Shown one piece after another: positions 15,689-51,776 of a stretch of DNA of 64,000 nucleotides. Within the stretch, counting starts at the first letter, position 1. The number at the start of each line of letters is the position of its first letter. The stretch comes from Micromonospora parva (lineage in GTDB: Bacteria; Actinomycetota; Actinomycetes; Mycobacteriales; Micromonosporaceae): assembly GCF_000718515.1 (NCBI RefSeq), contig NZ_JNZS01000002.1:124001-188000 (forward strand), given 5' to 3'. Below the pieces are notes generated by a model. That model saw only the letters and a program-made list of their open reading frames with translations. It did not search any database and was not told the DNA's origin. The translations under genes were made by a program, and so were the position numbers.

Positions 15689-15764
15689 AAGATCGTGCTC
15701 GATCCTGGAAGTAGTGGGGTCCCAACGTGCGGAAACCACTACATCCAGGATCAAGCACGATCTT
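15689..15764. repeat. Dispersed inverted-repeat element, copy 1
   Basis: Two 29-nt arms (15689-15717 and 15736-15764) are complementary at 27 of 29 positions around an 18-nt centre. The left arm begins AAGATCGTGCTC and ends AAGTAGTGG, and it is identical over all 29 nt to 51697-51725 in copy 2. It lies upstream of the XRE gene in a gene-free interval (15453-16065) and encodes no transposase. Confidence 0.85.
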
Positions 15765-15862
15765 CACGCGCCGCCGCCCTCGGGAGCGCCGGGGGCGCGG
15801 GCGCAGGCGGCCCGCGAGCCCGGCGCACCGAGCGAGCAGCGAGCAGCGAGCCTGGGACGGAG

Positions 15863-15990
15863 CGCGGGCACGGGACGCGGGCACGGGACGCGGGCGCGGG
15901 ACGCGGGCGCGGGACGCGGGCGCGGGCGCGGGGCGAAGCGCGGGCGCGGGCGCGGGGCGCGGGGCGCGGGCGCGGGGCACGGGGTGCGGA
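15863..15990. repeat. GC-only simple repeat
   Basis: A run built from GGGACGCGGGCGC-like units of 12-13 nt, degenerating into GCGGGGC repeats. It is strongly G-skewed on the plus strand. No plausible coding function is seen. Confidence 0.7.
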
Positions 15991-16065
15991 GGCCAGCGCG
16001 AGGGCGGGGGCGCCGGGTCGGGGGGTGATGCCACAAACGAGTCAGCTCGAAAGGACCGCAACACC

Positions 16066-16356
16066 ATGCCCCGGACCAACCCGGACGACCGCGCGACCAC
16101 GCCCCGACGACCGCACCTGCCGCTGCGCCCGCTCTGGCTCTGCCGGGTCTGCGCCGCGCCCTGGCCGTGCGCGGTCGCCCGGCTCACCCTCCGCCGGGAG
16201 TACGCGCACGACTGCGTCGGGTTGAGCGTCTACCTGTGCGCGGTCCTGCACGAGGCGGTCGCCGACCTGTACCGGCTCAACCCGCACGATGGGCCGGACC
16301 CCGCGGCGCTCTTCACCCGCTTCGTCGGCTGGGCGAGGCCACAAAACCTGCGCTGA
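16066..16356 (+). CDS. Small Cys-containing hypothetical protein linked to DUF5753/DUF397 loci
   Basis: A 96-aa protein with a basic Pro/Arg-rich N-terminus and a core PLRPLWLCRVCAAPWPCAVA, in which CxxC and a later Cys could bind a metal. A helical segment follows (YLCAVLHEAVADLYRLNP). ATG 16066 has GAAAGGA about 11 bases upstream. It is divergent from the XRE/DUF397 pair, next to which such short proteins are commonly found. No enzymatic domain is recognisable. Confidence 0.65.
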   Translation: MPRTNPDDRATTPRRPHLPLRPLWLCRVCAAPWPCAVARLTLRREYAHDCVGLSVYLCAVLHEAVADLYRLNPHDGPDPAALFTRFVGWARPQNLR

Positions 16357-16377
16357 GCGGGCCGGCTCAGGGGTGGG

Positions 16378-17787
16378 TCAGGGGTGGGTCATCCGAAGCA
16401 GGTCCAACGTCTCGTCGAGCTGGGTGACGGTGAGCTTGCCGGAGTCGACGTGCCCCCGGGAGATCACCACCTCGCGGATCGAGATCTGCTTCGCCAACGC
16501 CTCCTTGGCGATCGACGCGGCCTCGTCGTACCCCAGGTAGCGGTTGAGCGGGGTCACGATCGACGGTGAGCCCTCGGCGTACGCCAGGCAGACCTCGGCG
16601 TCCGCGACCAGGCCGGCCACCAACCGGTCGGCGAAGAGCCGGCTCACCGCGGAGAGCAGCCGGATCGACTCCAACAGGTTGCGGCCCATCACCGGGAGCA
16701 TCACGTTCAGCTCGAAGTCGCCCTGCGAACCGGCGAACCCGACCGTCGCGTCGTTGCCGATCACCTGGGCGCAGACCTGCCGCATCGCCTCGGCGACCAC
16801 CGGGTTGACCTTGCCCGGCATGATCGACGAACCGGGCTGGAGGTCGGGGATGCGCAGCTCACGCAGACCGGCGCGAGGGCCGGAACCCATCCAGCGGATG
16901 TCGTTGGCGATCTTGTAGAGGCCCACGGCGATGGTCCGCAGTTGCCCCGAGGTCTCCACCAGCGCGTCGCGCGCGCCCTGCGCCTCGAAGTGGTTACGCG
17001 CCTCGGACAGCGGCAACCCGGTCGACTCACGCAGTTTGTCGATCACGGCGGCGGCGAAGCCGAGCGGGGTGTTGATTCCGGTGCCCACGGCGGTGCCACC
17101 CAGCGGCAGCTCGGCGAGCCGGGGCAGGGCGCCCTCCAGCCGTTCCATTCCGTAGCGGACCTGAGCGGCATACCCGCCGAACTCCTGGCCGAGGGTCACC
17201 GGCGTGGCGTCCATCAGGTGCGTACGCCCCGCCTTGACCACCGTCTCGAACTCCGCCGCCTTGGTTTCCAAGGTGGCCGCCAGATGCCCCAGCGACGGCA
17301 GCAGGTCCTCCACGATGAACTGGGTGGCCGCCAGGTGGATGGAGGACGGGAAGACGTCGTTGCTCGACTGGGAGGCGTTGACGTGGTCGTTCGGGTGCAC
17401 CGGCGAGCCCAGCTCACGACTCGCCAGGGTGGCGATCACCTCGTTGGTGTTCATGTTCGATGACGTGCCCGAGCCGGTCTGGAACACGTCCACCGGGAAC
17501 TGGTCGTCGTAACCACCGTCGGCCACGTGCGCGGCGGCGGCGGCGATGGCGGCGGCCACGTTGGCGTCGATCACACCCAGCTCGCCGTTGACCTCGGCCG
17601 CCGCGCCCTTGATCTGGGCGAGGGCCTTGATCTGGGCCGGCTCGATTCCCCGGCCGGAGATCGGGAAGTTTTGCACCGCCCGCTGGGTCTGCGCACGCCA
17701 CAGTGCCTCGGCGGGCACCTCCACCTCGCCCATCGAGTCACGTTCGATGCGGTAACCGGTCGCCTCTGGAGTCGTCACGCGTACCAT
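16378..17787 (-). CDS. fumC: Class II fumarate hydratase
   Basis: A 469-aa oxygen-stable fumarase of the aspartase/fumarase superfamily that interconverts fumarate and L-malate. It has the superfamily signature [12 protein letters not shown], the substrate-site stretch [16 protein letters not shown], the H-loop [17 protein letters not shown] and [22 protein letters not shown] 17787 is used. GTG 17778, with AGGA eight bases upstream, is an alternative that removes three residues. It follows the SARP gene by 36 bp on the same strand and may be cotranscribed with it. Aspartase is less likely because the TxxxAxxx region is fumarase-like. Confidence 0.95.
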
Positions 17788-17822
17788 CCTGCCGCGCCCG
17801 TGGCCGACTCGCAGATGATCCG

Positions 17823-20804
17823 TCAGCCCAACTCGGTGAGCAGCCGCTCCGCCTCGTGCCGGTCCGGCGACTCGACCTCCCGGAACAACACCAGCGCCTG
17901 CTCCAGGTGCGCGCGGGCCGCCGTCGGATCCGTGGTCAGCACGCACCGGGCGATGCCCTCCAACGCCCGGGCCTTCTCGTAGCGGGCAGCGAGCCGGCTG
18001 GCGTCGGCGAGCACCCGGCGGTGCAGGTCGAGCGCGCTGACCGCGTCACCCTGCTCCAACATCGCCCGGGCCAGCAGGTTCCGGGAAGCACACTGACCGA
18101 TTCGGTCGCCGGCGTCCACCATCGCCACCAGCGCCTCCCGGTGCAGGGCTGCGGCACGCTCCGGATCGCCGGCGACACGTTCCATCACACCGATCTCGTT
18201 GAGCACCTCCCCCTCACCGAATCGGTTGCTGGCCCGGCGCTTGAGGTACAACGCCGTCCGCAGCAGGCGACGGGCGGGGCCCAGGTCACCCATCCGGTGC
18301 CGGATCATGGCGAGGTGCCCCAACGCGTTGTCGGTCTGCCGGCGGTCCTTCGCCTGCCGGGCCGCCAGGAGGTGCAGCCGGGCCAGGCGTAGCGACTCGT
18401 CGTACCGGCCCCAGGCGATAAACGCGTAGGACACGTTGTTCAACAGATTGGTCAGCGCATGGACGTCGACCAAGCCGCGGATCATGTCGAGCGCCTCGTC
18501 GAACTTCGCCTTACCCAGCCGGTGGTCACCGTTCGCGGCGTAGGAGACGCCGAGGTTCCACAGCGTGCTGAGCGTGTCGTCACGGAGCCCGAGCCGGCGG
18601 CGCACTGTCAGTGCCACCTCCATCGCGCTGATCGCCTCCGGGAAGCGGGCCAACCGGAAGTACGCCGACGAGAGGTAGTTCAGCATGGTGGCGTAGGCCG
18701 CCTCGTCGCCCAGCCGCTCGGTCACCCGAAGCCCGATAGTGTGGGTCTCGATCAGCTCGTCGAGGTGCCCGCCGTCGAAGTTGAGCCGCCAGCAGGCCCG
18801 GGCCAGCTGCCAGCACTGAACCGGGAAGTTCTCCTCCTCCGCCTTCCGGACCAGGGCGGTGAGCGCGACATGGTTCTCCTCGAACCACGCCCGCCCCTCG
18901 GCCACCGGGACAGCCAACAGGTCCGGCCGACCGGGCGTGCGCTCGGGAATGTTGCGACGACTGCCCGCCGCCTCGACCGTCCGGGCGATCGCCAAGGTGA
19001 CCGACAGGTGATGATCCAACAGCCGCTCCACGGCGGCGCGGCGTTCGGTCTGCCGCTCCGGGCCGACGAGCAGCAGCCGAGCGTACTCGCGGAGCAGATC
19101 GTGCAACCGGTACCGACCCGGCTGCACCTCCTCCACCAGATGCGCGTCGACCAACTCGTCCAACTGCTCCTGGGTGTCGGCGAGGGGCAGGTCGACGAGG
19201 GCGGCGGCCACCCGACTGTCGAAGCGCCCCGTCGGGTACAGGCCGAGCAGCGGAAACAGCCGCTGCGCCGACGGTGAGACCTGCGCGTACGACAGTGCGA
19301 ACGCCTGCCCCACCGAGCGCTGCCCGGCGGTCAGCTCGGCCAGCGGGCCCGCCCCGGCGACCAGCCGCTCGGCGAGGTCGGCGACCCGCCAGCGCGGCCG
19401 GTGCGCCAACCGCGCGCCAGCCAGCCGGATAGCGAGCGGCAGGTGGCCGCAGCGACGCGCCACCTCGGCCGCCGCCTCCGGCTCGGCGGCGATCCGCTCC
19501 ATCCCGGCCACCCGACCGAGCAGCTCGATCGCCTCGTCGGCGTCAAGGACCGGCAACGACGACGGCCGGCCCTCGTCGACCCCGATGAGCCGGCGGCGAC
19601 TGGTGATGAGGACCAGGCTCTGCGCGCCGTTGGGCAGCAACGGCGCCACCTGGTCGGCACTGGCCGCGTTGTCCAGGACCACCAACGCACGGCGGCCGGC
19701 CAGCTCGATCCGCCAGAGCGCCAACCGGTCGTCCAGGTTCTCCGGCACCCGCTCCACCGGCACACCGAGCTGCCGCAGGAGGGCCGCCACGGCCGTTGCC
19801 GTTGTCAACGGTCGGCGTTCGCTGTGCCCGTGCAGGTCGATGAAGAGCTGGGCGTCGGGATAGCGGTCCGCGAGCGCGGTGGCGACGTGTACGGCAAGCG
19901 TGGTCTTGCCGCTGCCCGGCATCCCGTCGACCACCTGGATCCGGATGCCGTCCTCCTCGATCTCCTTGACCAGGCGGGCCACCGTCTCCTGCCGACCGAT
20001 GAAGTCCCCGATCGCCCGGGGCAGGGAACGAACCGGGCCGACGGGTGGGGCCGGCCGACCGGCCAGGGCCAGGTCGCCGGCGAGCACCCGTTGGTGCAGC
20101 TCCTGCAGCTCGGCACCCGGTTCGATGCCCAACTCCTCGGCGTACGTCCGCCGGCCCTCGCGGTAGACGGCGAGTGCGTCGGCCTGCCGCCCGACCGAGG
20201 ACAACGCCAGCATCAGCTGACCTCGCAGCCGCTCCCGCAACGGATTCCGGTCGACGCTCTCCGCCAACTCCTCGATCAGCTCAGCTGCCTGACCGAGGCG
20301 CAGTTCGACGTCGACGCACTCCTCCAACGCGGTGAGGCGTTGCTCGTCGAGCGTCTGGGCGCGACGGCGGACGCTCCGGCTCGCGATGCCACCGAGTGTC
20401 GGCCCCCGCCACAGGGCCAGCGCGGCGCGGAACTCCATACGCGCCTCGACCAGCCGGCCGGCGACGACCTGGGCACGGGCCACCTCCACGCGCCGGTTGA
20501 AGATCTCGGCGTCCAGGTCGTTCGGTGCGGTACGCAGTCCGTACCCCGCCGGGTCGGTGACGATCAGCTCAGGCGCCAGCCCGAGTTCGGTGAACCGGCG
20601 GCGCAGCCGCGACACGCAGGTCTGCAACTGCGCGCGGGCGGTGGCCGGCGGGTGGTCCTCCCACACCGCGTCGACGAGTTCGTCGACCGGCACGAGCCGG
20701 CCGGCCCGCAACAGCAGCATGGCGAGGACGGTCCGGTCGCGTCCCGCGGTGACAGTGGCTTCGCCACCGCCCACCCGCAGAGGCCCCAGGATCCCGAACC
20801 GCAT
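17823..20804 (-). CDS. SARP/AfsR-type regulator (OmpR-like HTH, BTAD, NB-ARC, TPR)
   Basis: A 993-aa multidomain regulator. An OmpR-like winged helix spans residues 1-95 ([19 protein letters not shown]), and a bacterial transcriptional activation domain spans ~96-245, including the conserved [20 protein letters not shown]. An NB-ARC ATPase follows with P-loop GMPGSGKTT at 294-302, Walker B-like [10 protein letters not shown] and the GLPL-type motif [12 protein letters not shown]. The last ~400 residues are TPR-like helical repeats. Domain order is that of AfsR of Streptomyces, which controls secondary metabolism on Ser/Thr phosphorylation. GGGAGAG precedes ATG 20804. No biosynthetic cluster is adjacent. 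Confidence 0.93.
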
Positions 20805-21015
20805 CTACTCTCCCGCGTCAGTGGTGCAACTTCCAGCAGAGTAGTCCGGTGGTGACAGATCGCCCCGGCCAGGCAAGAGTGATCTGAGAGCGGATCGACA
20901 GTGATGCGCAGCAAACTCACTTCGGGTTGTCGGTGACGGCATCCGACGGGGGCGGTGCGCCCGTCCCACCCCAGCGGGGCGGGCGTACCGATTGTCGGTA
21001 GAACACGGGCGACAG

Positions 21016-21047
21016 ACGGGTGCCGGGCGGATTCGCCCGGCACCCGT
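21016..21047 (-). terminator. Hairpin terminator after the class I fumarase gene
   Basis: A perfect 14-bp stem (21016-21029 with 21034-21047) closes a 4-nt GATT loop, 16 bp beyond the fumarase stop. There is no long T-tract, which is usual in high-GC actinobacteria. Confidence 0.7.
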
Positions 21048-21063
21048 TCGCGTTGCGGTCGGG

Positions 21064-22731
<1,668 letters not shown>

Positions 22732-22739
22732 GAGCGGCA

Positions 22740-22745
22740 AGCCTA
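22740..22745 (-). promoter_or_regulatory. -10 element of the class I fumarase gene (leaderless)
   Basis: On the minus strand TAGGCT, eight bases, then ATG 22731. There is no Shine-Dalgarno. Confidence 0.5.
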
Positions 22746-22856
22746 GGGCAGACCGGTCGATCACTCCCACCCGCCGGGCGGGTCCTGGGACGCCGCTCTC
22801 ATCCAGCAGGCGCGCCGTGCCCGGCCGCCGTGCGGATCGTCGGGCGAACGGCCGGC

Positions 22857-24320
22857 TCAGCCGTCCTTACCGCCGCCCGGGTCGGGGCAGAGTTCCCCCT
22901 TCGGCCCGCAGTCGTCGTTGTCCGGCTCGCCGGGGTCGGTGCCGCCCGGCCGGGGATTCCCACCGTCGCCGGGCGGTCGGGTGGACGAGCCGCCGGCCGC
23001 GCCGACGAAGCGGACGTACCCGATCTCCCGCCCCTCGCCAATGATCATCCCCTGTGATCCGACGGCGAGAGCGTTCGCCGAGGTGCGCAGGGCGGCCAGC
23101 TCCCGGCCGGTGCGCGGGTCCAGGGCGGCCAGCCGGGACGGCTTCTCGTCGGTCACCACCACCGCGTACGGGGTGAGCGCCGCGCCGGCCTTGCCGCTGG
23201 CCTGCCGTGTCCAGAGCACCTTGTCGGTGCCCAGCTCACGGGCGATGACGGAGCGTTTGTCGGCGGCCCGGAACACCGCGGAGCGGTCGTCCACAGCGAT
23301 CAACTTGGTGCCCGACTCACCGACCCAGAGCAGCCGTCCGTCGTACCCGTCGATGACCGCCTCACGGCCGTCGGGAGCGACACCGATCAGCACGTTCCGC
23401 GCGCCCTGCGGGTCCTCGCGTTGCACGCAGCCGGCCGAGTCAGCGGTGCGCAGGTTGACGCCGGCCCGCTGCCAGGCCTCCTGCCCCGTGGCCGAGTCGC
23501 GGGCGGAGATGGCGAAGTAACAGGTGCCGTCCTGGGAGCGGGCGGCGATCCGCAGCAGCCGACCGCCCACCACGGAGAGCCGCTCGTCCCGGGCCGGCTC
23601 GACGTTCTGCAACACCCGGCCGGTGGCGGTGTCGACCACGTGGACCCGACCGTCGACCGGGAAACCGAGCAGTGGCGGCGCGGCCTCGGCCCCGGCCACC
23701 CCGTCGTCGATCCGGTTGGCGGTGAGCCGGCGGGTGCCGCGCAGACCCGGGTTGTCGGCGAGCAGGCCGCTGTGCACCCCGGGCAGGAAAGCCGTCCACA
23801 GCGGCGCGGTGCCACGCGGGTCCCAGGCGCTCAGGGTGCAGTCGGTGGCGTCGGTGCAGCGGGCGTCGAGGAGCAGATTGCGGTACGTCCAGACGGCAAC
23901 CGCGTCGTCGTCACGTCGCCGGGTCACCCCGGTCGTCGGGTCGAGCAGCTCGTACCCCTTGACCAGCAGCTTGCCCACGGCCACGACCGGGTCACGGTCA
24001 CCGCCGGCGACCGCCGCCCAGTCGGCCTTGCGCTCCCAGAGCTGGGCGCCGGTGGCCAGGCTGCGGGCCTCGACCCGGGTGCGCTGCTCGACGACGACGG
24101 CGTCACCGGCGATGGTCACGCTGCGCGGGGTGCCGCCGACGCGTTGCTGCCAGACCACGTCGGGCTCGGAGATGGGTTCGCTGCGGTCCACCCAGTCCCA
24201 CAGGCCGGGGAACGGGTTCCACACGCCGGTCGCGGCGAGCGCGACGACCACGGCGAGGCCGAGCAGCAGCCCACCGCGCACGCTCCCCTTCGCCACACCG
24301 CACACCGTAGCCACGATCAC
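22857..24320 (-). CDS. Membrane-anchored PQQ-like beta-propeller protein
   Basis: A 487-aa protein with one N-terminal membrane segment ([19 protein letters not shown]). An extracellular beta-propeller follows, built from repeats with the PQQ-type pattern, for example [45 protein letters not shown] and [17 protein letters not shown] Gly/Pro-rich tail ends in two Cys (CGPKGELC). GTG 24320 is preceded by GGAAG; GTGs slightly downstream are possible. There is no evidence for PQQ binding residues, so a scaffold or ligand-binding role is more likely than dehydrogenase activity. A second such protein lies at 30824-32080. Confidence 0.8.
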
Positions 24321-24375
24321 GGATCTTCCGTACGCCCGCGTCGCCGTGTCGCCGCGCTTTCTGGGCGGGGAGGTG

Positions 24376-24879: not shown

Positions 24880-24887
24880 GAGTGCAG

Positions 24888-24893
24888 ACCATA
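24888..24893 (-). promoter_or_regulatory. -10 element of the Lrp/AsnC gene (leaderless)
   Basis: TATGGT on the minus strand, eight bases, then ATG 24879. CATTC (24875-24879) and GAATG (24896-24900) flank it and could be half-sites for the regulator. Confidence 0.5.
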
Positions 24894-24910
24894 CCGAATG
24901 CGCAACCTGA

Positions 24911-26224
<1,314 letters not shown>

Positions 26225-26258
26225 CACTTGCGAGCGTGACGCAACCTCCGTCGTACCC

Positions 26259-26301
26259 GACGCCGCCGGTCGGTGGGCCCCGACCCACCACCGGCGGCGT
26301 C
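26259..26301 (+). terminator. Strong hairpin after hppD
   Basis: GACGCCGCCGGT plus GGTGGG (26259-26277, one bulged C at 26271) pairs with CCCACC plus ACCGGCGGCGTC (26284-26301). It starts 35 bp past the hppD stop. No T-tract follows, so terminator function is inferred. Confidence 0.6.
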
Positions 26302-26378
26302 GCGCCGCTGCCCGGACCACACCCTTCGGGGTACGCCCCGCGACACGTCCATGACGAGTTCGCCGGGACGGTCGTCGT

Positions 26379-26384
26379 TAAGGT
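26379..26384 (+). promoter_or_regulatory. -10 element of the leaderless mini-ORF/RDD transcript
   Basis: TAAGGT, six bases, then GTG 26391, which begins the nine-codon ORF whose stop overlaps the RDD start. Confidence 0.45.
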
Positions 26385-26390
26385 GTCCTC

Positions 26391-38028: not shown

Positions 38029-38724
38029 TCAACCGGTCGTGGCAAGCAGATGCTCCGCCAGGGCCAGGTCGAACGGTCGGGTGATTTTCACTGCGTACTC
38101 CGAGCCGGGCACGCAGCTCACCTCGACACCCTGCTTCTCGACCAGCCCGGCGTCGTCGGTGAGGGAGTCACCGGCAGTGGCGTGCGCGGCGCTGAGCACG
38201 GCCCGGCGGAAACCCTGCGGGGTCTGCACCGCGCGCAGGGCGGATCTGTCGACGGTGCCGAGCACCACCTCGCCGGCGCCGACCTCCTTGATGGTGTCGA
38301 CGACCGGCAGGACCGGGATCACCGCGTCACGCCCGCTCCGGACCGCCGCCGCGACGGATTCGACAAGCTCGGGCGGGGTGAGCGCCCTGGCGGCATCGTG
38401 CACCAGGACGATCGTCGGGCCGGCCGGCACGGCGGCCAGCGCGGCGGCGACCGATGCCTGCCGTTCCGCCCCTCCGGGCACCACGATCACCGGCGCGACC
38501 GGGGCCAACAGCTCGCGGACGGCCTGCACCTCGGCGGTCGGCGCGGCCACCACGATGGTGTGCACGGAGGGCGCGGCAGCCAGTCGACGTACGGTGTGCA
38601 CCAACAGCGGCTCACCGGCGAGCAGGCGCAGCGCCTTGGGTCGGCCGGGGCCGAGCCGTACGCCGGCACCCGCCGCGGGCACGAGGACCGCGACGTCACC
38701 GCGCGGATTGAGCTGCGCGGTCAC
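38029..38724 (-). CDS. ispD: 2-C-methyl-D-erythritol 4-phosphate cytidylyltransferase
   Basis: A 231-aa MEP-pathway nucleotidyltransferase. The CTP-binding loop is [20 protein letters not shown], a slightly divergent form of the AAGxGxRxG motif. [33 protein letters not shown] and [14 protein letters not shown] follow in the usual order. GTG 38724 has GAGGA upstream. It is between carD and ispF, an order conserved in actinobacteria. Confidence 0.95.
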
Positions 38725-38780
38725 GTCGCGGTCCTCGGTGGTTTCTTCACTACGAAGTGGGTACGACGATGCTGTGCGGA

Positions 38781-42024: not shown

Positions 42025-42109
42025 CTCTCGTCAGATGCTGTCCTCCCCCTGGCCGTCCCACCAGCCACCCCGGCTGGTCGTTCTCCCGTACGAGCCCGGT
42101 GGCGCGGGC

Positions 42110-43276: not shown

Positions 43277-43318
43277 CTCGTCCCCTCCTTGGCGTTCCAT
43301 ACCCCCGCCACGGCCTGA

Positions 43319-44092
43319 CTATCCTTTGCGGACCCCCCGGCCCTGGTAGAGCACGGCGGTGGAGCGGGTCGGCACGATGCGCGGCGCCCGACCGGCGGGC
43401 ACCGTACCGGGCGTTCCGGCCGCGCGGGCGCGGCGCAACAGCCAGGCGAGCACCCCGCCGACCTGCGGCCGGATGCCGCGCAACCGCAGGTCGACACCGT
43501 GTCGGGCGCACTCGGCGACCAGCGCCCGGGCGTCCACGAACAACCGAGGATCGTGAATGCCACGCGGCACCGTCGGCAGCCGTTCGGCGATCCGGACCGC
43601 GACGAGCCGGGCCAGCGCCGTGTCGTTCAGGGTGTCCAGCACCAGCACGCCACCCGGGCGCAACAGCCGGCACGCCTCGGCCACCGCCCGCGGCCAGTCC
43701 GGCACGTGCTCCAGCAACTCGCCGGCGGAGACCACGTCGGCACAGCCGTCGGGCAGCGGAACAGCGGTGGCGTCACCCTGGATCACGCTGACCCCGTGCT
43801 CGGCCGCCTGGACGAGGGCCGAGCGGGTCAGATCCACCCCGACGTGGCGGTAGCCCCTGCCGGCCAGGTGCGGCGCGAGCAGGCCGGCACCGCAACCCAG
43901 ATCGACGAGCACCGCGCCCGCACGGGTGGCCGGCGGCACCAGCGCCGCACGCGCCTCCGCCAACCAGTGCAGCATCGCGAACGCGCCGTCGGGCCGCCAC
44001 CACTCACCGGCCAGATCGTCGTACTGACGCGGATCGTTTCGCGGCAGCACCCTCGGCCCGGTGGACGCCCCGGCCGCAGCCACGTCTCGCAT
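43319..44092 (-). CDS. UbiG-like SAM-dependent O-methyltransferase
   Basis: A 257-aa class I methyltransferase. It starts like UbiG (DPRQYDDLAGEWWRPDGAFA), with SAM-binding motif I VLVDLGCGAGLLAPHLAGRG, the acidic post-I VGVDLTRSALVQA, CADVVSAGELLEHVPDW and RLLRPGGVLVLDTLND. UbiG O-methylates catechol-type rings in ubiquinone synthesis; here menaquinone is expected instead, so an aromatic polyketide from the neighbouring PKS is the likely acceptor. It starts 46 bp from the divergent UbiA gene and lies 42 bp upstream of the flavoenzyme gene. Confidence 0.9.
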   Translation of the reverse strand: MRDVAAAGASTGPRVLPRNDPRQYDDLAGEWWRPDGAFAMLHWLAEARAALVPPATRAGAVLVDLGCGAGLLAPHLAGRGYRHVGVDLTRSALVQAAEHGVSVIQGDATAVPLPDGCADVVSAGELLEHVPDWPRAVAEACRLLRPGGVLVLDTLNDTALARLVAVRIAERLPTVPRGIHDPRLFVDARALVAECARHGVDLRLRGIRPQVGGVLAWLLRRARAAGTPGTVPAGRAPRIVPTRSTAVLYQGRGVRKG

Positions 44093-44138
44093 GGAACCGA
44101 GCGTGGCACGACTGCTCGGTAACGACCAGACTTCCCTT

Positions 44139-44978
44139 ATGTCGTCGAGGGTGTTAGGGCTGGTCAGAGCGAGCCATCCGGAACCGGCCGCGGCGGTGAC
44201 CACGGTGGCCGGTCTGCTGGCGTGGGGAGTGGGCCACCGGCCGGCCGGAATCGTCTCGGTGGTGCTCGCCGTGCTGGCGAGCCAGCTCGCTGTCGGCTGG
44301 ACCAACGACGCGCTGGACGCCGAGCGGGACGCCACTGTGGGGCGTACCGACAAGCCGGTCGCCAGTGGCGCGGTCGGTCGGCGCGTCACGGCCTGGGCCG
44401 CCGTCGTGGCCGCGGTGGCCTGCCCTCTGCTGGCGCTGACCACGAACCCGGCGGCGGCGTTCTGGCTGACCCTCGCCCTGGTCTCCGCCCTGCTCTACGA
44501 CTGGCCGCTCAAGGCCACCGCGTTCTCGGTGCTGCCCTACGCCGTGTCGTTCGGCGCGCTGCCCGCCTTCGTGGTGCTGGCACTGCCCGGTCAGCCGGCC
44601 CCGCCCGTCTGGCTGGTGGCGGCGGCGGCCTGTCTGGGCGCCGGCGCGCACTTCGCCAACGTGCTGCCCGACCTGGCCGACGACGCCCGCACCGGCGTGC
44701 GCGGCCTGCCCCACCGGTTGGGCGCCGCCGGCAGCCGGGTGGCCGCGGCGGGTCTCCTGCTCGCGGCGACCGCGGCCCTGGTCCTCGGGCCACCAGGGCC
44801 GCCGTCGGCGATCGGCTGGGCGGCGGTCGGCACGGCCGCCGTGGTGCCGCCACTGAGCTGGTACGCCGGACGCTCGGCGAGCCGGGCCGGTCAGCGGCCG
44901 GTGGCGGCCTTCCGGGCGGTCATGCTGGTGGCCCTCATCGACGTGGTTCTGCTGGTGGCGAGCGGTCGGGTGGTCTGA
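44139..44978 (+). CDS. UbiA-family prenyltransferase
   Basis: A 279-aa membrane prenyltransferase with about eight helices. The two Asp-rich substrate-binding motifs are TNDALDAERDATVGRTDK and DLADDARTGVRGLPHRLG, which coordinate Mg-prenyl diphosphate. ATG 44139 was preferred because the conserved region begins directly afterwards; CAGACT lies six bases upstream as a possible weak -10. It diverges from the methyltransferase, flavoenzyme and PKS genes and would transfer a prenyl group onto an aromatic acceptor. MenA identity is less likely in this context. Confidence 0.9.
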   Translation: MSSRVLGLVRASHPEPAAAVTTVAGLLAWGVGHRPAGIVSVVLAVLASQLAVGWTNDALDAERDATVGRTDKPVASGAVGRRVTAWAAVVAAVACPLLALTTNPAAAFWLTLALVSALLYDWPLKATAFSVLPYAVSFGALPAFVVLALPGQPAPPVWLVAAAACLGAGAHFANVLPDLADDARTGVRGLPHRLGAAGSRVAAAGLLLAATAALVLGPPGPPSAIGWAAVGTAAVVPPLSWYAGRSASRAGQRPVAAFRAVMLVALIDVVLLVASGRVV

Positions 44979-44980
44979 AC

Positions 44981-44998
44981 GCCACCCGGCCAGGTGGC
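44981..44998 (+). terminator. Weak hairpin after the UbiA gene
   Basis: GCCACC-CGGCCA-GGTGGC directly follows the stop codon. The stem is only 6 bp, with no T-tract. Confidence 0.35.
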
Positions 44999-45118
44999 AT
45001 TGCCGGGTCCGCGTGCGGGCCTCGATCAGCCCCAACTACCCTGGAGCGCGGTCTGCGCGGGTATGGCCACCGTGCCCGGCGTACGGCCCGGGTGGGGATT
45101 GTGACGAGGAGGACCGAC

Positions 45119-45898
45119 GTGACGCGCTCGATCAGGGGATCCCGGCGGGCGGCCCTGTTGCTGTCCGGGATTGCGGCGGCCAGCCTGCTGGCTTCGGGAT
45201 GCGGCGCCGGTCAGATCGCCGAGACCGCGTTGAAGGAGCCGTCGGTCCAGGGCGTCAACCTCACGACCGACAACGGTTCCTTCTCGGTGCGGGGCCTGCT
45301 GGTGGACTACCCGGGCACCGAGGGTTACCGGGCCGGGCAGGACGCCGGCCTCGGCGCAGTGATCTACAACGACTCCAAGGAGACGGTGACGGTCACCGTC
45401 ACCACCGAGAGCGCCCGCGAGGTGGTGATCAGCGGCGGCTCGGCGAGCCCGTCGCCATCCGCCTCGGAGTCCGCCTCGGAGAGCCCGTCGCCGTCCGGTT
45501 CGGCCAGCCCGTCGAACTCCACCTCGGGTTCGCCGAGCCCGTCGGCGACGCCGTCCGAGACCGGGTCGTCCTCGGCCACGCCGTCCGCCCCGGAGTCGGC
45601 GCGGGCGTCCGGTTCGGCCAGCCCGGCCGCTCCGGGCCAGCCGGCCCGGATCGAGCTGGCGCCGTTGAGCTACATCCAGTTCAACTCCGAGGCCACCTCG
45701 CAGCTCCGGCTGATCGGCCTGACCGAGGCGCTGCGCTCCGGTCAGAACGTCGTGGTGACCTTCGACTTCGGCAACGGCAACACGGTCACCGGCCAGGCGC
45801 CGGTCGCGGTGCCGCTCACCCCGGCGGCCCCTCCGTCGCCGATCATCGAGCGCGAGGGCGGCTACGAGGGCGACGAGGGCGGCACGACCCACGAGTGA
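45119..45898 (+). CDS. Lipoprotein with Ser/Pro-rich linker
   Basis: A 259-aa exported lipoprotein. The signal peptide ends in the lipobox LLASGC (SIRGSRRAALLLSGIAAASL before it), so the mature protein starts at the Cys. A first beta domain (GVNLTTDNGSFSVRGLLVDY, GLGAVIYNDSKETVTVTV) and a second (LAPLSYIQFNSEATSQLRLI, NVVVTFDFGNGNTVTGQAPV) are joined by ~75 residues of SPSASESASESPSPSG-type repeats. AGGAGG lies six to seven bases before GTG 45119. The two halves together resemble one copper-chaperone-like or DUF461-type beta sandwich interrupted by the linker. Function not assigned. Confidence 0.85.
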   Translation: MTRSIRGSRRAALLLSGIAAASLLASGCGAGQIAETALKEPSVQGVNLTTDNGSFSVRGLLVDYPGTEGYRAGQDAGLGAVIYNDSKETVTVTVTTESAREVVISGGSASPSPSASESASESPSPSGSASPSNSTSGSPSPSATPSETGSSSATPSAPESARASGSASPAAPGQPARIELAPLSYIQFNSEATSQLRLIGLTEALRSGQNVVVTFDFGNGNTVTGQAPVAVPLTPAAPPSPIIEREGGYEGDEGGTTHE

Positions 45899-45921
45899 CC
45901 CGTAGCGCACATCGACGAACG

Positions 45922-45956
45922 CCCCGGCGTGGTGACCACCACGCCGGGGTGTTTTC
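45922..45956 (+). terminator. Rho-independent terminator of the lipoprotein gene
   Basis: CCCCGGCGTGGTG (45922-45934) pairs with CACCACGCCGGGG (45937-45949), followed by TGTTTT. It is the clearest terminator in the window and insulates radA. Confidence 0.9.
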
Positions 45957-45971
45957 GTCGTACGCGGGGGC

Positions 45972-45977
45972 TAGCGT
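45972..45977 (+). promoter_or_regulatory. -10 element of radA (leaderless)
   Basis: TAGCGT, six bases, then GTG 45984. There is no Shine-Dalgarno. Confidence 0.55.
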
Positions 45978-45983
45978 CCTGAT

Positions 45984-47441
45984 GTGACCACGTCCCGATC
46001 GACCCCTCCGCGTGGCGGCACGGCCGGTGCCGCCCGTGCTCGGTCCGCCGCCCGCGAGCCGCGTCCGGCCTACCAGTGCGACGCCTGCGGGCACCAGCCG
46101 CCCAAGTGGGTGGGGCGCTGCCCGGAGTGCGGCGAGTGGGGGGCGGTGGTCGAGAGCACGGTGACCGGCCCGACCGTCTCCGGTCGGGTGGTCAGCTCCC
46201 GGATGCCGGCCGAGCCGGCCCGGCCGATCGCCACCATCAGCGCCGCTCCGGCCCGCGCCCGTCCCACCGGGGTCAGCGAGCTGGACCGGGTGCTCGGCGG
46301 CGGCCTGGTCCCCGGTGCCGTGGTGTTGCTCGCCGGCGAGCCCGGCGTGGGCAAGTCGACCCTCCTGCTCGATGTGGCACAGCAGTGGGCGGTCAATGCC
46401 GGCAGCCCTTCGCTGGTGGTCAGCGGCGAAGAGTCGGTGAGTCAGGTGCGGCTGCGCGCCGAGCGGATGGGCACCCTGCACGAGCAGCTCTACCTCGCCG
46501 CGGAGAGCGACCTGGCCTCGGTGCTCGGGCACCTCGACGCGGTCAAGCCGGGCCTGTTGGTGCTCGACTCGGTGCAGACCATCTCGACGACCGGCACCGA
46601 AGGGGTGCCCGGTGGGGTGACCCAGGTCCGCGCGGTCACCGCGGCGCTGGTGTCGGTCGCCAAGGAGCGGGGCATCGCCACCGTGCTGGTCGGGCACGTC
46701 ACCAAGGACGGCCAGGTGGCCGGGCCTCGGGTGCTTGAGCACCTGGTCGATGTGGTGCTGCACTTCGAGGGCGACAAGCACTCGTCGCTGCGCCTGGTGC
46801 GCGGCGTGAAGAACAGGTTCGGCGCGGCCGACGAGGTCGGCTGCTTCGAGATGCACGAGGGCGGCATCAGCAGCCTGGCCGACCCGTCCGGGCTGTTCCT
46901 GACCCGCTACGCGGAGCCGGTCCCGGGCACCTGCGTCACGGTGGCAATGGAAGGGCGGCGGGCGCTGGTCACCGAGGTGCAGGCGCTGATCGGCGCGACG
47001 GTGGCGGGCTCTCCCCGACGCACCGTCTCCGGCCTCGACTCGGCGCGACTGGCGATGGTGCTCGCGGTGCTGCAACGGCGCACCGAGCGGCTGACCCTGC
47101 ACGACCGGGAGGTTTTCGCCGCCACCGTGGGCGGGATCCGGGTGGTGGAGCCGGCCGCCGACCTGGCGGTGGCCCTGGCGGTCGCCTCCGGCGGGCTCAA
47201 CCTGGCGATCGCGCCGCACCTGGTGGCGATCGGTGAGGTGGGGCTGACCGGCGAGGTGCGGCGGGTCGGGGCGGTGCCGCGCCGACTGGCCGAGGCGGCC
47301 CGGCTGGGGTTCAAGGTGGCCCTGGTGCCGCCCGGCTGCGGCCCGGCCAGCACCGGCGCCGGGCCCGAGCAGATGCGGGTGACCGAGGTCACCGACGTCC
47401 GTTCGGCGCTACACCATGCGGCCCGTGCGTCCGCCGAGTGA
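45984..47441 (+). CDS. radA: DNA repair protein RadA
   Basis: A 485-aa RecA-like branch-migration ATPase that helps process recombination intermediates. The N-terminal C4 zinc finger is YQCDACGHQPPKWVGRCPEC. The ATPase core has Walker A GEPGVGKSTLL, Walker B-like LLVLDSVQTI and the RadA-specific VKNRFGAADEVG. The C-terminal Lon-protease-like domain (AVALAVASGGLNLAIAP, GEVGLTGEVRRVGAVPRRLA) completes it. GTG 45984 fits the leaderless pattern. radA-disA adjacency is conserved in Gram-positives and links repair to c-di-AMP signalling. Confidence 0.97.
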   Translation: MTTSRSTPPRGGTAGAARARSAAREPRPAYQCDACGHQPPKWVGRCPECGEWGAVVESTVTGPTVSGRVVSSRMPAEPARPIATISAAPARARPTGVSELDRVLGGGLVPGAVVLLAGEPGVGKSTLLLDVAQQWAVNAGSPSLVVSGEESVSQVRLRAERMGTLHEQLYLAAESDLASVLGHLDAVKPGLLVLDSVQTISTTGTEGVPGGVTQVRAVTAALVSVAKERGIATVLVGHVTKDGQVAGPRVLEHLVDVVLHFEGDKHSSLRLVRGVKNRFGAADEVGCFEMHEGGISSLADPSGLFLTRYAEPVPGTCVTVAMEGRRALVTEVQALIGATVAGSPRRTVSGLDSARLAMVLAVLQRRTERLTLHDREVFAATVGGIRVVEPAADLAVALAVASGGLNLAIAPHLVAIGEVGLTGEVRRVGAVPRRLAEAARLGFKVALVPPGCGPASTGAGPEQMRVTEVTDVRSALHHAARASAE

Positions 47442-47560
47442 CCCACCGTGCCGACGAGGGCGGCGAAACCGGACAGCGGGTCGTAAGCGGGAAACGCCGG
47501 AGAGGGCGGCATCGTGACACATCACAGTAACCACGACAGCACCCACCGCACGGCAGTCCG

Positions 47561-47566
47561 TAGACT
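47561..47566 (+). promoter_or_regulatory. -10 element of disA (leaderless)
   Basis: TAGACT, six bases, then GTG 47573. This favours 47573 over the in-frame GTG 47567 directly after the hexamer. Confidence 0.55.
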
Positions 47567-47572
47567 GTGCCC

Positions 47573-48757
47573 GTGCCGATCGACCGCGATACCACCAAGC
47601 CAGCCGGCGCGCCGCCCCAGGCCCGCACCGGCGCCGTGGGCTCGCCCGCCCGCCCGATCAGCGTGAGCGTGACTGCGGGGGCCGCCGGGAGCGCCGGAGA
47701 TCCGCTGCGGGCCAACCTCGCCCTGATGGCCCCGGGCACCGCCCTGCGCGACGGTCTGGAGCGCATTCTGCGGGGTCGCACGGGTGCGCTCATCGTGCTC
47801 GGCTACGACAAGGTGGTCGAGGGCCTGTGCACCGGCGGCTTCCCGCTGGACGTGGAGTTCTCCGCGACCCGGGTGCGCGAGCTGTGCAAGATGGACGGCG
47901 CCGTTGTGCTCTCCAGCGACGGCACCAGGATCGTCCGGGCCGCCGTGCACCTGATGCCTGACCCGTCCATCCCGACCGAAGAGTCCGGCACCCGGCACCG
48001 CACCGCCGAGCGGGTGGCCCGCCAGACCGGCTATCCGGTCATCTCGGTCAGCCAGTCCATGCGGATCATCAGCCTCTACGTCAACGGTCAACGACACGTG
48101 CTCGACGACTCGGCGGCCATCCTCTCCCGCGCCAACCAGGCGCTCGCCACCCTGGAGCGCTACAAGCTCCGGCTGGATGAGGTCTCCGGCACGCTCTCCG
48201 CCCTGGAGATCGAGGATCTGGTCACCGTGCGGGACGCGGTGGCAGTGGTGCAGCGACTGGAGATGGTCCGCCGGATCGCCGACGAGATCGCCGGCTACGT
48301 GGTGGAGCTGGGCACCGACGGCCGCCTGCTCGCCCTGCAACTCGACGAGCTGATGGCCGGCGTGGACGCCGACCGGACCTTGGTCATCCGGGACTACCTC
48401 CCGGTCGGCCGCAAGTCCCGCACCCTGGACGAGGCTCTTGTCGAGCTGGACCTGCTCGGTGCCACCGAGCTGATCGACCTGGTGTCGGTCGCCAAGGCGA
48501 TCGGCTACCCGGCGGCGTCCGACGCGCTCGACGCCGCGGTCAGTCCGCGCGGCTTCCGACTGCTGGCCAAGGTGCCCCGGCTCCCGGTGGCGGTGGTCGA
48601 CCGCCTGGTGCTGCACTTCGGCAGCCTCCAGCGGCTGCTCGGCGCGACAGTGGAGGACCTGCAAGCCGTCGAAGGGGTCGGCGACGCCCGGGCCCGTGGC
48701 GTCCGTGAAGGGCTGTCCCGGCTCGCCGAGGCATCCATCCTGGAACGCTACGTCTGA
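47573..48757 (+). CDS. disA: DNA integrity scanning protein / diadenylate cyclase DisA
   Basis: A 394-aa octameric enzyme that makes c-di-AMP from two ATP and scans DNA for branched intermediates. After a ~40-aa variable extension, the DAC domain has [20 protein letters not shown], the catalytic [11 protein letters not shown] and the RHR motif in [16 protein letters not shown] helical spine follows, and a C-terminal HhH DNA-binding domain ([32 protein letters not shown]). It lies 131 bp after radA with its own leaderless start. Its stop is six bp from a convergent gene. Confidence 0.97.
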
Positions 48758-48763
48758 GCGGGC

Positions 48764-49480
48764 TCAGCCGGCGACGGTCAGCTTCACCGGCTCGCTGAGC
48801 TTCGTGCCGACCCTGGCGAACACCTGGTACGACCCGACCGGCGCGAACGGCCCACCGGCCAGCGCACCGTCGCAGCGGCTGGTGTCCCGCCCGTTCCACG
48901 GCACCTCGTAGGAGCGCACGAAGCCCGGCGTGAAGGTCTGCACGTCCGACCCCTGGACCTTGCCGCAGGTGTCCGACGACCAGACCTTCTCGGCACCGGA
49001 CTTGATGAAGATCTCCTGCAGGTCGGCGCCGACGTTGCGACTGCACGTCCGGTCCGACGTGTTCTTGATCTTCAGTTGCAGCTCGACCACCGCGCCTCGC
49101 TGCACCGAGGTCTGGCTCGCCGACGAGACCACGCTGATCTCCCCGTCGGTGCAGGTGCCGTCGTCCTCCGAACCGGCCGCCGCGCCCAGCGGCGGGGTGT
49201 TGCTGGTGATCGCCGGGCTCGGAGTCGTCGCAGTCGAATCAGCGGGCGCGGGCGGTGACGGAGACCCGGTCTGCGGTGTCAACACCGGCCCGCCGGGATC
49301 AGACGTCGCGGAGGACGTCGCCGACGGGGTGCCTCCCGCCGTCGGCTTCTGACCGCCGGACCGATCCGAACCGGTGCAGGAGTAGAGCAGGACAATCAGG
49401 AACAGAAACCCCGCTCCGAGTACGACGGCGCGACGCCGCCAGTACACGGCGGGTGGCAGGGGGCCGACCGTCAGACGCAT
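48764..49480 (-). CDS. Single-pass membrane protein with extracellular beta domain
   Basis: A 238-aa protein. A short cytosolic N-terminus leads to one membrane helix (AVVLGAGFLFLIVLLYSC), a ~70-aa Pro/Ser/Thr-rich linker and a beta-sandwich domain: GEISVVSSASQTSVQRGAVV, LQLKIKNTSDRTCSRNVGAD, SYEVPWNGRDTSRCDGALAG, GSYQVFARVGTKLSEPVKL. Four Cys in the domain are probably paired. The domain resembles bacterial Ig-like/DUF4232-type modules. ATG 49480 with GGAGGG was used instead of the longer frame. Function unknown. Confidence 0.75.
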   Translation of the reverse strand: MRLTVGPLPPAVYWRRRAVVLGAGFLFLIVLLYSCTGSDRSGGQKPTAGGTPSATSSATSDPGGPVLTPQTGSPSPPAPADSTATTPSPAITSNTPPLGAAAGSEDDGTCTDGEISVVSSASQTSVQRGAVVELQLKIKNTSDRTCSRNVGADLQEIFIKSGAEKVWSSDTCGKVQGSDVQTFTPGFVRSYEVPWNGRDTSRCDGALAGGPFAPVGSYQVFARVGTKLSEPVKLTVAG

Positions 49481-49586
49481 GATGCCCTCCACCGTAGCCG
49501 CGCCGTACCCGGCAGTGCGGCGCGACGCGCCGGAACCGATTCGAGGGCTACGCCCCACCGTCCACTGAGGACGGACGACGCACCGG

Positions 49587-50171
49587 TCACAGGTAGACCT
49601 TGCGCTGATAGATCGCGTGCGCACCGGCCACCCGGTCCAGGAAGAGCAGCCCCGCGCAGTGGTCGATCTCGTGCTGCAACGCCCGAGCCTCGAAGCCGTC
49701 GGTCACCAGCCGGACCGGCTCGCCACTGCCCGGCAGGTCACCCTCCACCACCAGCCGGCTGGCCCGCTTCACGTCACCGGTCAGGTCCGGCACCGACATG
49801 CAGCCCTCCCGGCCCGGCTTCCACCGGGTCGCCTCGACCACCCGCGCGTTGCACAGCACGAACGTGCCGTGCACCGTCACCGCCTTCGGATGCCCGGTCA
49901 CGTCGACAGCGAAGACCCGAGCGCCCACCCCGACCTGCGGTGCGGCCAGCCCGACGCAGCCCGGCGAGACCCGCATCGTGGCCACCAGGTCGGCCGCCAA
50001 CTGGACCGTCTCCGCGGCGGTGGGATCGACCTCGTCCGAGGCCCGGCTCAACACCGCGTGCGGGGCGGATACCACCGGCCGCACCACGCCAGGCACCAAC
50101 AGCGAGTCCGGCGTCCAGTCACCCAGACCGGTGTACGCCTCGACGTCCGGCACGCGCTCCTCGCCCGTCAC
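49587..50171 (-). CDS. def: Peptide deformylase
   Basis: A 194-aa metalloenzyme that removes the formyl group from nascent N-terminal Met. All three motifs are present: GCVGLAAPQVG (motif 1), EGCMSVP (motif 2, with Met in place of the usual Leu) and QHEIDHCAG (motif 3, HExxH metal site). GTG 50171 overlaps the upstream ACT-gene stop (GTGA), so it is translationally coupled. The ~30-aa N-terminal extension is typical of an actinobacterial second deformylase. Another def copy probably exists elsewhere in the genome. Confidence 0.95.
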   Translation of the reverse strand: MTGEERVPDVEAYTGLGDWTPDSLLVPGVVRPVVSAPHAVLSRASDEVDPTAAETVQLAADLVATMRVSPGCVGLAAPQVGVGARVFAVDVTGHPKAVTVHGTFVLCNARVVEATRWKPGREGCMSVPDLTGDVKRASRLVVEGDLPGSGEPVRLVTDGFEARALQHEIDHCAGLLFLDRVAGAHAIYQRKVYL

Positions 50172-50680
50172 AGCAGATCCGGGTCCGCCGGCCGGAGGGT
50201 GACCTCCACGCCCAGCTCGGCAGCCGTCCGGTGTAGCCGGTCAACCAGAGTGTCCGCCACCCCGGCCGGCAACTCGACCTCCGCCAGGACCACGTAGAGC
50301 TCACCGGTCAACCGGGTGCTCAGGTCGGTGACATTCCCCCCGGCGTCCACCAGCACCCGGGTCATCGCCGCGACGATCCCCATCCGGTCCGAACCGTGCA
50401 CCGCCATCACGTACGGCTCACCGGCCGGCGGCACGTCGCCGTCCGGGGTGACCGCGCGTACCGTCGCCAGCAGCTGGCCCTCGGCGGTCAGTGACGCCAG
50501 TGCGGCCTCGACCTCGGCGGCGGCCGGCCCGGTGCAGATGAGGGTCATCGCGAAATGCCCCCGCAGGCGCGTCATCGTGCTGTCGGTGAGGTTCGCGCCC
50601 AGTCGGGCCAGCACCTCCGCGACGTCGGCCACGATGCCCGGCCGGTCCCGACCGATGACGGTGATCGCGAGCTCGTTCAT
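50168..50680 (-). CDS. Tandem ACT-domain protein (glycine-cleavage repressor-like)
   Basis: A 170-aa protein made of two ACT domains: LAITVIGRDRPGIVADVAEV and VMAVHGSDRMGIVAAMTRVL, each opening its domain with the DRPGI or DRMGI loop that binds small ligands. There is no DNA-binding domain, as in E. coli GcvR, which binds its partner activator. GGGGAG is nine bases before ATG 50680. It is coupled to def and divergent from mutY. The ligand is probably an amino acid. Confidence 0.88.
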   Translation of the reverse strand: MNELAITVIGRDRPGIVADVAEVLARLGANLTDSTMTRLRGHFAMTLICTGPAAAEVEAALASLTAEGQLLATVRAVTPDGDVPPAGEPYVMAVHGSDRMGIVAAMTRVLVDAGGNVTDLSTRLTGELYVVLAEVELPAGVADTLVDRLHRTAAELGVEVTLRPADPDLL

Positions 50681-50776
50681 CCGGGCATTCTCCCCCGTCC
50701 GCCGGACGACGATGTGGCACCCCGCCCGAGCCGCCCATCCAACGGGAACGCCGGGCGTGACATCATCGACGACGCC

Positions 50777-51688
50777 ATGACTCAACCCGACTTCGCCACG
50801 GCGGTCAGCCGATGGTTCCAGCAGCACGCCCGGGACCTGCCGTGGCGCGAGCCCGGTGTCACCCCGTGGGCCATCCTGGTCAGCGAGGTCATGCTTCAGC
50901 AGACGCCAGTCGTCCGGGTGGTGCCGGCCTGGGAGGCCTGGCTGGCGCGATGGCCGGAGCCGGCCGCGTTGGCGGCGGACACCCCCGCCGAGGCGATCCG
51001 GATGTGGGGACGCCTCGGCTACCCCCGTCGGGCGGTGCGGCTGCGCGAATGCGCGGTCGCGATCGTCGACCGGCACGCCGGCCAGGTGCCGGACCGGCTG
51101 GAGCACCTGCTGGCACTGCCCGGCGTCGGCACCTACACCGCGCGGGCGGTGGCCGCCTTCGCGTACGGGCAGCGGCACCCGGTGGTCGACACCAATGTAC
51201 GCCGGGTCGTGTGCCGGGCAGTGGCCGGTGAACCGGACGCCGGGCCGGTCACCCGACCCGCCGACCTGGTCGCCACCGAAGAACTGCTCCCACTGGAACC
51301 GGCAGCGGCAGCGCTGGCCAGTGCCGCGTTCATGGAGCTGGGAGCGGTGATCTGCACCGCCCGGTCGCCGCGCTGCACGGCCTGCCCCGTCGAGTCGACC
51401 TGCGCCTGGCGGGCGTCCGGCCAGCAGGCACCGGCGGGGCCGACCCGTCGGCCCCAGCGGTACGCGGGTACCGACAGACAGGTACGCGGCCTGCTGCTCG
51501 GGGTGCTGCGGGACAGCACCGGACCGGTTCCGCACCAGCGGCTGGACCAGGTCTGGACCGACGACGTGCAGCGCGCCCGCGCCCTCGCCGGCCTGGTGCA
51601 GGACGGGCTGGTCGAGCCCGCCGGCACCGACTCCTTCCGCCTGGTCGGTGACGGCCCCTCCCTGCCAACGGCCGACCTCACGACCTGA
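50777..51688 (+). CDS. mutY: A/G-specific adenine glycosylase
   Basis: A 303-aa base-excision repair enzyme that removes adenine opposite 8-oxoguanine. Catalytic Glu37 (SEVMLQQT) and Asp138 (VVDTNVRR) fall at the same numbers as in E. coli MutY. The HhH is LPGVGTYTARAVAAFA. The [4Fe-4S] Cys are 193, 200, 203 and 209 (C-x6-C-x2-C-x5-C). The C-terminal 8-oxoG-recognition domain is short, as in other actinobacteria. ATG 50777 begins the conserved region and has no SD. It lies 96 bp from the divergent ACT gene. Confidence 0.95.
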   Translation: MTQPDFATAVSRWFQQHARDLPWREPGVTPWAILVSEVMLQQTPVVRVVPAWEAWLARWPEPAALAADTPAEAIRMWGRLGYPRRAVRLRECAVAIVDRHAGQVPDRLEHLLALPGVGTYTARAVAAFAYGQRHPVVDTNVRRVVCRAVAGEPDAGPVTRPADLVATEELLPLEPAAAALASAAFMELGAVICTARSPRCTACPVESTCAWRASGQQAPAGPTRRPQRYAGTDRQVRGLLLGVLRDSTGPVPHQRLDQVWTDDVQRARALAGLVQDGLVEPAGTDSFRLVGDGPSLPTADLTT

Positions 51689-51692
51689 CCGT

Positions 51693-51776
51693 CCGCAAGA
51701 TCGTGCTCGATCCTGGAAGTAGTGGTGTCAGGCGCGACGGATGCCACTACATCCTGGATGTTGTGCGATCTTGCGG
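51693..51776. repeat. Dispersed inverted-repeat element, copy 2
   Basis: Imperfect arms at about 51693-51731 and 51738-51776 begin and end with CCGCAAGATCG/CGATCTTGCGG and meet at AGTAGTGG/CCACTA-type inner ends. The segment 51697-51725 is identical to 15689-15717 of copy 1, while the right arm has diverged. It starts four bp after the mutY stop and may also act as its terminator. Confidence 0.85.

Follow-up and report, generated by a model that had tools for sequence, protein, structure and literature searches.

Interspersed palindromes of Micromonospora, kept in place at some gene ends: a candidate REPIN-like family without RAYT

Two 76-bp palindromes in a 64,000-nt stretch of the Micromonospora parva genome (contig NZ_JNZS01000002.1; the whole stretch is hereafter the window) belong to a Micromonosporaceae superfamily of interspersed palindromes 76-80 bp long. 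At some slots these elements are inherited vertically and held under constraint while their flanks change; in other species there is no element there, or another palindrome. From sequence comparisons, we propose that they form a family like the REPINs (doublets of repetitive extragenic palindromic, or REP, sequences) that is independent of the REP-associated tyrosine transposase (RAYT), and that the host may keep its members as bidirectional gene-end elements, at the ends of transcripts; we put the probability of this reading at somewhat under one half (about 0.45). RAYTs, or ends derived from insertion sequences (IS), are the usual explanation for short dispersed palindromes. The present set is a large actinomycete one for which neither was found and in which some copies are constrained in place, making both the spread of a repeat without RAYT and a gene-end role in GC-rich bacteria open to test.

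Sequence families and architecture

Copy 1 (15689-15764) consists of arms at 15689-15717 and 15736-15764, and copy 2 (51697-51772) of arms at 51697-51725 and 51744-51772; no strand is assigned to either. An earlier note on this DNA had described an identical 29-nt left arm within an element of 76-84 nt. The identity in fact covers 30 nt (15688-15717 = 51696-51725) and both palindromes are exactly 76 bp long; the right arm of copy 1 lies where the note had put it, and that of copy 2 at 51744-51772 instead of 51748-51776. The right arms have diverged, as had been noticed: copy 1 has a nearly perfect complement, and in copy 2 the outer portion of the arm (ATGTTGTGCGATCTT) is of the family B type described below, with complementarity reaching 51693-51776. 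Predicted folds of the two copies have energies of -53 and -54 kcal/mol (-53.2 kcal/mol for copy 1). With up to three mismatches, the inner 17-mer matched the window four times, once in each of the four arms, where shuffles give an expectation of 0.06. A palindrome scan returned two palindromes of score >=16, copy 1 among them, and none in three shuffled windows; at >=14, which takes in copy 2 (15.5), it returned seven against 0.33 per shuffled window. When the window was searched with Rfam, the elements fell below the gathering score for every family, and only tRNA and msiK matched.

Allowing three mismatches, the 29-nt arm matched the genome 25 times and a backward control pattern not at all. 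These matches represent 21 distinct palindromes, four of them matched in both arms, and from the 21 a covariance model, R1, was built, with which copies 1 and 2 score 94.1 and 90.0 bits. On the 7.1-Mb genome R1 gave 138 hits on both strands, or at least 73 places (E <= 0.1), a lower bound because scoring covered only 150 of the 8605 first-look candidates; the tail of this list is weak (weakest place, E 0.096). Model R2, built on family C, gave at least 72 hits in the whole genome; hit counts for both models cover both strands and are lower bounds. A further model, R3, was applied to the window only. The window itself holds two weaker elements absent from the earlier note, both family C members without assigned strand, at 7711-7799 (R2 55.6 bits, E 3.1e-13) and 9269-9357 (R2 42.9 bits, E 1.2e-9); the latter sits between an open reading frame (ORF) ending at 9271 on the plus strand and a subtilase gene with its 3' end at 9644 on the minus strand. 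Two copies was thus an underestimate, and the suggested search of this genome and of relatives yielded dozens of places here and many in other Micromonospora.

At least three sequence families, A, B and C, share one architecture with the ends CAWGATC...GATCWTG. Sorting the 73 places by arm sequence gave 52 in A, 10 in B and 11 in C under a crude rule that misplaces some copies (for example, 26, 49 and 66 in B; 44 and 47 in C). GATC lies near the ends in 92/104 A arms, 16/20 B arms and 22/22 C arms, and the two GATCs are 72-75 bp apart in 54 of the 63 copies measured (10 of the 73 were dropped); this spacing, together with the arm pairing, gives an inverted doublet at fixed spacing, as in a REPIN. 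In typical members a stretch in the middle resembles TYCWKGAWGTNGNGG, and the centre is variable. Of 111 exact family A arms, 109 are paired with an inverted partner no more than 75 bp away, and two unpaired family A arms are explained, one being cut by a contig end and one rearranged. Some copies, including copy 2, join an A left arm to a B-like outer right arm, so that arm parts look exchangeable. One copy outside the window (L076, 2506-2595) has an internal duplication (GATCATTGATCTCGATCATTGATG) in one arm. At least 7 of the 73 elements have a contig end no more than 300 bp away (on C2, C16, C30, C35, C42 and C47, end lengths being checked for eight contigs) against 0.5 expected (P 1e-6), an excess with a practical side, as assemblies probably break at the elements.

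Distribution among species

At E 1e-3, R1 matched 23 of 41 genomes (our own included), 22 of them Micromonospora. Across 61 Micromonospora genomes at E 1e-4, family A was present in 50 and family C in 55, leaving 11 and 6 without a match. Species carry anything from no copies to dozens, and A and C vary independently: one genome (G005) is A-rich among the matches listed and has no C, three others (G018, G019 and G021) have no A and at least 67, 52 and 46 C hits, respectively, and one (G058) has neither. An exact arm scan of named genomes returned 107 stretches, and the 80 titles listed are all Micromonospora, several of the loci being those of M. saelicesensis. Among 121 Micromonosporaceae genomes, 15 matched, spread over 8 of 44 genera (Micromonospora and seven others). 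Twelve copies in one of these genera (g25, genome G084) follow the pattern CAAGATCGCGCT..TTCCCGGAAGTAGTCCCCTC, several of them being almost perfect palindromes. A search of titles and the beginnings of abstracts, confined to open-licence papers, returned no published account of such repeats in Micromonospora, which does not imply absence from print.

Palindromes of other sequence were also seen in gaps (L051, L054, L083, L093, L096, L097, L105, L145 and L290), among them TGATCAAGAAGTTTGCGTCA.., AGATCTTGGACAGTTTCCGTCA.. and GATCATGAGGTTGGC... In this genus, interspersed palindromes that are unrelated or distantly related seem to be plentiful.

Placement at the 3' ends of genes

Elements are positioned mostly at the 3' ends of genes, above all between convergent ones. 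Gaps with an element (n = 58) comprised 34 convergent, 20 codirectional and 4 divergent gaps, against 5, 69 and 42 among gaps without one (n = 116); the convergent enrichment has a Fisher odds ratio of 31 (P 1.8e-15) for gaps of 100-1500 bp, the background being drawn from the same stretches as the occupied gaps and the genes from a homemade caller that misses some. Between codirectional genes, 17 of 22 copies are nearer the stop codon of the upstream gene. None of the 73 copies lies inside a called gene, and 8 were unclassifiable. Copy 2 starts 8 nt past the stop codon of an HhH-GPD family base-excision repair gene (50777-51688, plus strand, start as given by the homemade caller; Pfam PF00730), which is convergent with a Clp AAA+ ATPase gene (51961-54504, minus strand; PF02861, PF07724 and PF10431); the gap between them is called the clpB slot below. 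The flanks of elements are C-rich before and G-rich behind, a composition that might suit Rho-dependent termination. GC-rich short tandem arrays occur beside some elements, for example at 15860-16000 in the window and at 10680-10725 in L104.

In the proposed reading, each copy would act as a two-way end-of-transcript element. The near-symmetric sequence, transcribed from either side, would form a long hairpin past the stop codon, and this hairpin could stop the polymerase or protect the 3' end of the RNA. A protein recognising the arm sequence may also be involved, because arm sequence is kept also where it is unpaired.

Gene-end location and stable predicted folds would equally fit ordinary intrinsic terminators that arose independently at each gap. 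Such an origin is already made unlikely by the common sequence: unrelated gaps share 30 identical nucleotides, the sequence families are common to several species, and whole families are missing from some genomes of the genus (A from 11 and C from 6 of the 61). We consider it highly improbable.

Conservation in place

The clpB gap was sought by gene homology in the 61 Micromonospora genomes, giving 29 relatives' loci and 23 usable slots. Five relatives keep the copy at 0.86-0.95 identity; one slot (L128, 0.48) holds a diverged A-like palindrome, another (L130) reads N at this position, and the others hold C-like or other palindromes, or nothing. Over eight slots found by gene homology (five with A references and three with C references; at L324 the references were three palindromes scoring >=13.5, to the exclusion of two family A copies), the element is kept at 0.82-0.95 in 13 of 61 comparisons. 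The 26 flank values of these 13 copies have a median of 0.53, where unrelated flanks give 0.51 as a baseline, and 25 of them lie no higher than the 95% level of such unrelated flanks. Within the genome, the median identity among family A paralogues is 0.72, with 95% at or below 0.80. As the kept copies exceed this, they are best read as vertically inherited and not re-inserted, while slot comparisons at 0.71-0.77 could be either.

Within the clpB slot, changes summed over the five relatives against one shared reference affected 24/320 arm positions (7.5%), 12/60 loop or centre positions (20%) and 205/796 fourfold sites of the upstream gene (26%), these slot rates being restricted to slots in which the element is retained at >=0.8. 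Since the element is kept between flanks at random level and its arms change more slowly than fourfold sites, some copies are, as judged from these alignments, constrained in place while their flanks change. A wider set of 174 orthologous pairs gave median identities of 0.86 for the element, 0.55 for flanks and 0.92 for genes; it was partly chosen by arm match (L151-L257 by exact arm match), and this selection, together with palindrome detection that favours paired arms, overstates arm conservation in the set. Neutral decay of copies in place was dropped as an explanation after the orthologue pairs, the eight-slot comparisons and the clpB rates.

Arm sequence, pairing and points against a gene-end role

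Several observations weigh against a host-kept gene-end role. In 79 of the 174 orthologous pairs, paired and unpaired stem positions changed at rates of 0.063 and 0.068, respectively, and 2 compensated double changes stood against 268 single pair-changing ones; the gene-anchored slots gave rates of 0.088 and 0.119, with 3 compensated changes against 58 single. Covariation was not above shuffles in A1 and A3 and was marginal in A2, the score being equalled in 168 (A1, picked by left arm), 33 (A2) and 191 (A3) of 500 shuffles. Copies are dispensable, as 48 of the 61 slot comparisons do not keep the element at 0.8, and some gaps have no palindrome of this kind (L124, L127, L259 and L288). The clpB gap already holds another hairpin, a GC-rich and terminator-like one from the palindrome scan (51908-51947, no strand assigned) that adjoins the Clp gene stop and is not a member of the family; a similar hairpin is present, by eye, in relatives' clpB slots. 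Copy 1 has no clear place at the 3' end of a gene: its location is ambiguous, upstream of an HTH_31-DUF5753 regulator ORF on its left (14643-15500, minus strand; PF19054 and PF13560), which the homemade gene caller missed and whose true start lies somewhere within these coordinates. The placement statistics depend on that caller and on background gaps from the same stretches, and 3'-end placement is also expected if insertions elsewhere are harmful.

We conclude that constraint acts on the arm sequence and that single mismatches are tolerated in whatever pairing may be needed. The two arms of an element are closer to each other than to arms of other elements (P 0.0002 for A, 0.0009 for B, 0.0045 for C and 0.006 for G084, the B and C sets including misplaced copies), which either pairing or shared descent would explain. 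Rapid arm-to-arm correction inside the palindrome is not supported, as orthologue changes are almost all one-sided (55 single and 2 double in the 20 of 43 pairs aligned gap-free at >=0.7). The earlier note had also offered a conserved RNA or terminator module; gene-end location and conservation in place agree with this, but over short times it is the sequence that is kept and not the pairing.

Conservation of sequence over pairing in orthologues would also follow if the arms were paired sites for a DNA-binding protein, acting as a roadblock, insulator or nucleoid organiser, with the long palindrome a by-product of two inverted sites. The inverted partners of 109/111 exact A arms agree with such pairs of sites, as does a short dyad core, W[TC]C-N2/3-GAW (for example, ATCCTGGAT and TTCCCGGAA), in each arm. 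This core occurs in 73/104 A, 18/20 B, 16/22 C and 37/40 other-genera arms, far above the 2.6, 0.8, 0.9 and 1.1 in shuffled arms, although these counts come partly from selection, since R1 was used to find the copies in other genera and the list for our own genome. The likeness of arms within an element is not needed by independent sites (subfamily descent would give the same), and there is no candidate protein; we regard this explanation as unlikely.

Mobilisation and spread

The many copies in this genome and in other Micromonospora, and their patchy numbers, agree with the dispersed REP/REPIN-like or MITE-like family (MITE, miniature inverted-repeat transposable element) suggested in the earlier note, while the signs of mobilisation it had named were not found. 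Our genome has no match to PF01797, the family searched for RAYT, and no cognate Y1 transposase was found in it. Matches occur in 17 of the 61 Micromonospora genomes without relation to copy number: among copy-rich genomes, one match was found in G002 and partial matches in G062, and none in ten others (G004, G005, G008, G012, G024, G049, G054, G067, G069 and G071). A classical REPIN mobilised by RAYT would account for the size and inverted-doublet layout and for the GTAG/CTAC inside family A arms; given this distribution of PF01797, we find it hardly credible.

A scan of 63 copies for target-site duplications (k 2-9, offsets of 0-6 to either side, 49 offset pairs for each k) detected none, the highest z being 2.6. 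The 107 stretches contain neither a longer element bounded by family A ends nor an unpaired arm beside a transposase, so that the usual signs of a MITE are missing; terminal repeats common to the elements and an autonomous IS were likewise not found (family A arms only). Remnants of one known insertion sequence, which the earlier note had named as a refuting outcome, were rejected for family A because an exact arm hardly ever lacks its partner. No recurrent transposase-like gene family was found beside copies, recurrent neighbour clusters being small and without annotation (the largest, 8 proteins in 6 stretches), and none by eye between close element pairs in five stretches. No clean empty site was found; three polymorphic slots chosen for comparison (L186/L235, L138/L142 and L290/L288) differ by 27-32 bp of flank as well. 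The closest pair in the genome (C26/C9, 96% identity) also shares about 55 bp of left flank and may thus be a longer duplication, not a clean case of dispersal.

It is possible that the palindromes are selfish miniature mobile elements, REPIN- or MITE-like, with no host function, their placement reflecting tolerated sites and their conservation the copies that survive in detectable form. Patchy copy number with A and C independent, different families or none in related species' slots, hybrid arms, and the keeping of a copy in only 13/61 slot comparisons are all consistent with this. The clpB-slot arms, however, change at less than one third of the fourfold-site rate, and kept copies are more alike than paralogues between flanks at random level; no mobiliser, target duplication or clean empty site was found, and even the closest pair has a common left flank. 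We consider purely selfish elements somewhat unlikely; they and the protein-binding sites are the chief rivals of the gene-end reading. In the gene-end reading, copies would have spread by a trans-acting, non-RAYT machinery that leaves no detectable target duplication. More tentatively, a RAYT-independent REPIN-like lineage may have turned into a host-maintained modular gene-end element, with exchangeable arms, a dispersal of an undescribed kind, and purifying selection as a two-way transcript end or insulator while the gap around it is replaced.

Comparison with known repeats

REPINs of Pseudomonas fluorescens SBW25 are REP doublets that form hairpins (PMC3116915). Like the Micromonospora elements, they are dispersed inverted doublets of similar length (in the GI group, 71 bp lie between the two 16-mers), extragenic, able to form a single-strand hairpin, and less conserved in the spacer than at the ends (PMC3116915). 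The Micromonospora elements differ in having no RAYT association, in the ends CAWGATC and, by inspection, in having no short arm hairpin conserved in all families. Compensatory changes are described as common in REPINs (PMC3116915) and are weak or absent here. By inspection of the arm alignments, no arm is a REP with a terminal GTAG and a short palindrome of its own: GTAG lies inside the arms, not at the end, in family A and genus g25, and GATCGTGCTCGATC can fold in many A arms, with no counterpart seen in B or C.

The GTAG and CGTC superfamilies of REPs are also palindromic and extragenic, and CGTC repeats have no dedicated transposase (PMC3733652). They are described as 20-40 bp long with the tag at one end, against 76-80 bp with GATC near both ends in Micromonospora; the main text of PMC3733652 contains no mention of "actinobacteri", Salinispora, Micromonospora or Streptomyces. 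Bacterial MITEs (YPAL/RU-2; Correia/NEMIS and RUP) are likewise small, non-coding, dispersed inverted repeats (PMC2229807, PMC3733652), but the Micromonospora repeats have no target-site duplication and no parent element was found for them; nor are they TA-ended or A+T-rich, as most MITEs are described to be (PMC2229807). Streptomyces clavuligerus is reported to have highly structured 3' ends without a U-tract and bidirectional 3' ends (PMC8269248). The bidirectional or I-shaped terminators of GC-rich bacteria resemble the present elements in these structured ends, some of them two-stranded, but the available text of PMC8269248 does not describe them as an interspersed sequence family, and the terminator function suggested here is a putative one. 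The Micromonospora elements combine a REPIN-like layout and dispersal with the placement of two-way terminators, and lack several defining features of REPIN/RAYT systems and of MITEs for which they were tested.

Other features of the window

An unrelated 56-bp palindrome (palindrome scan, score 20.5) lies at 38682-38737, and the msiK RNA motif (Rfam RF01747) at 2184-2242.

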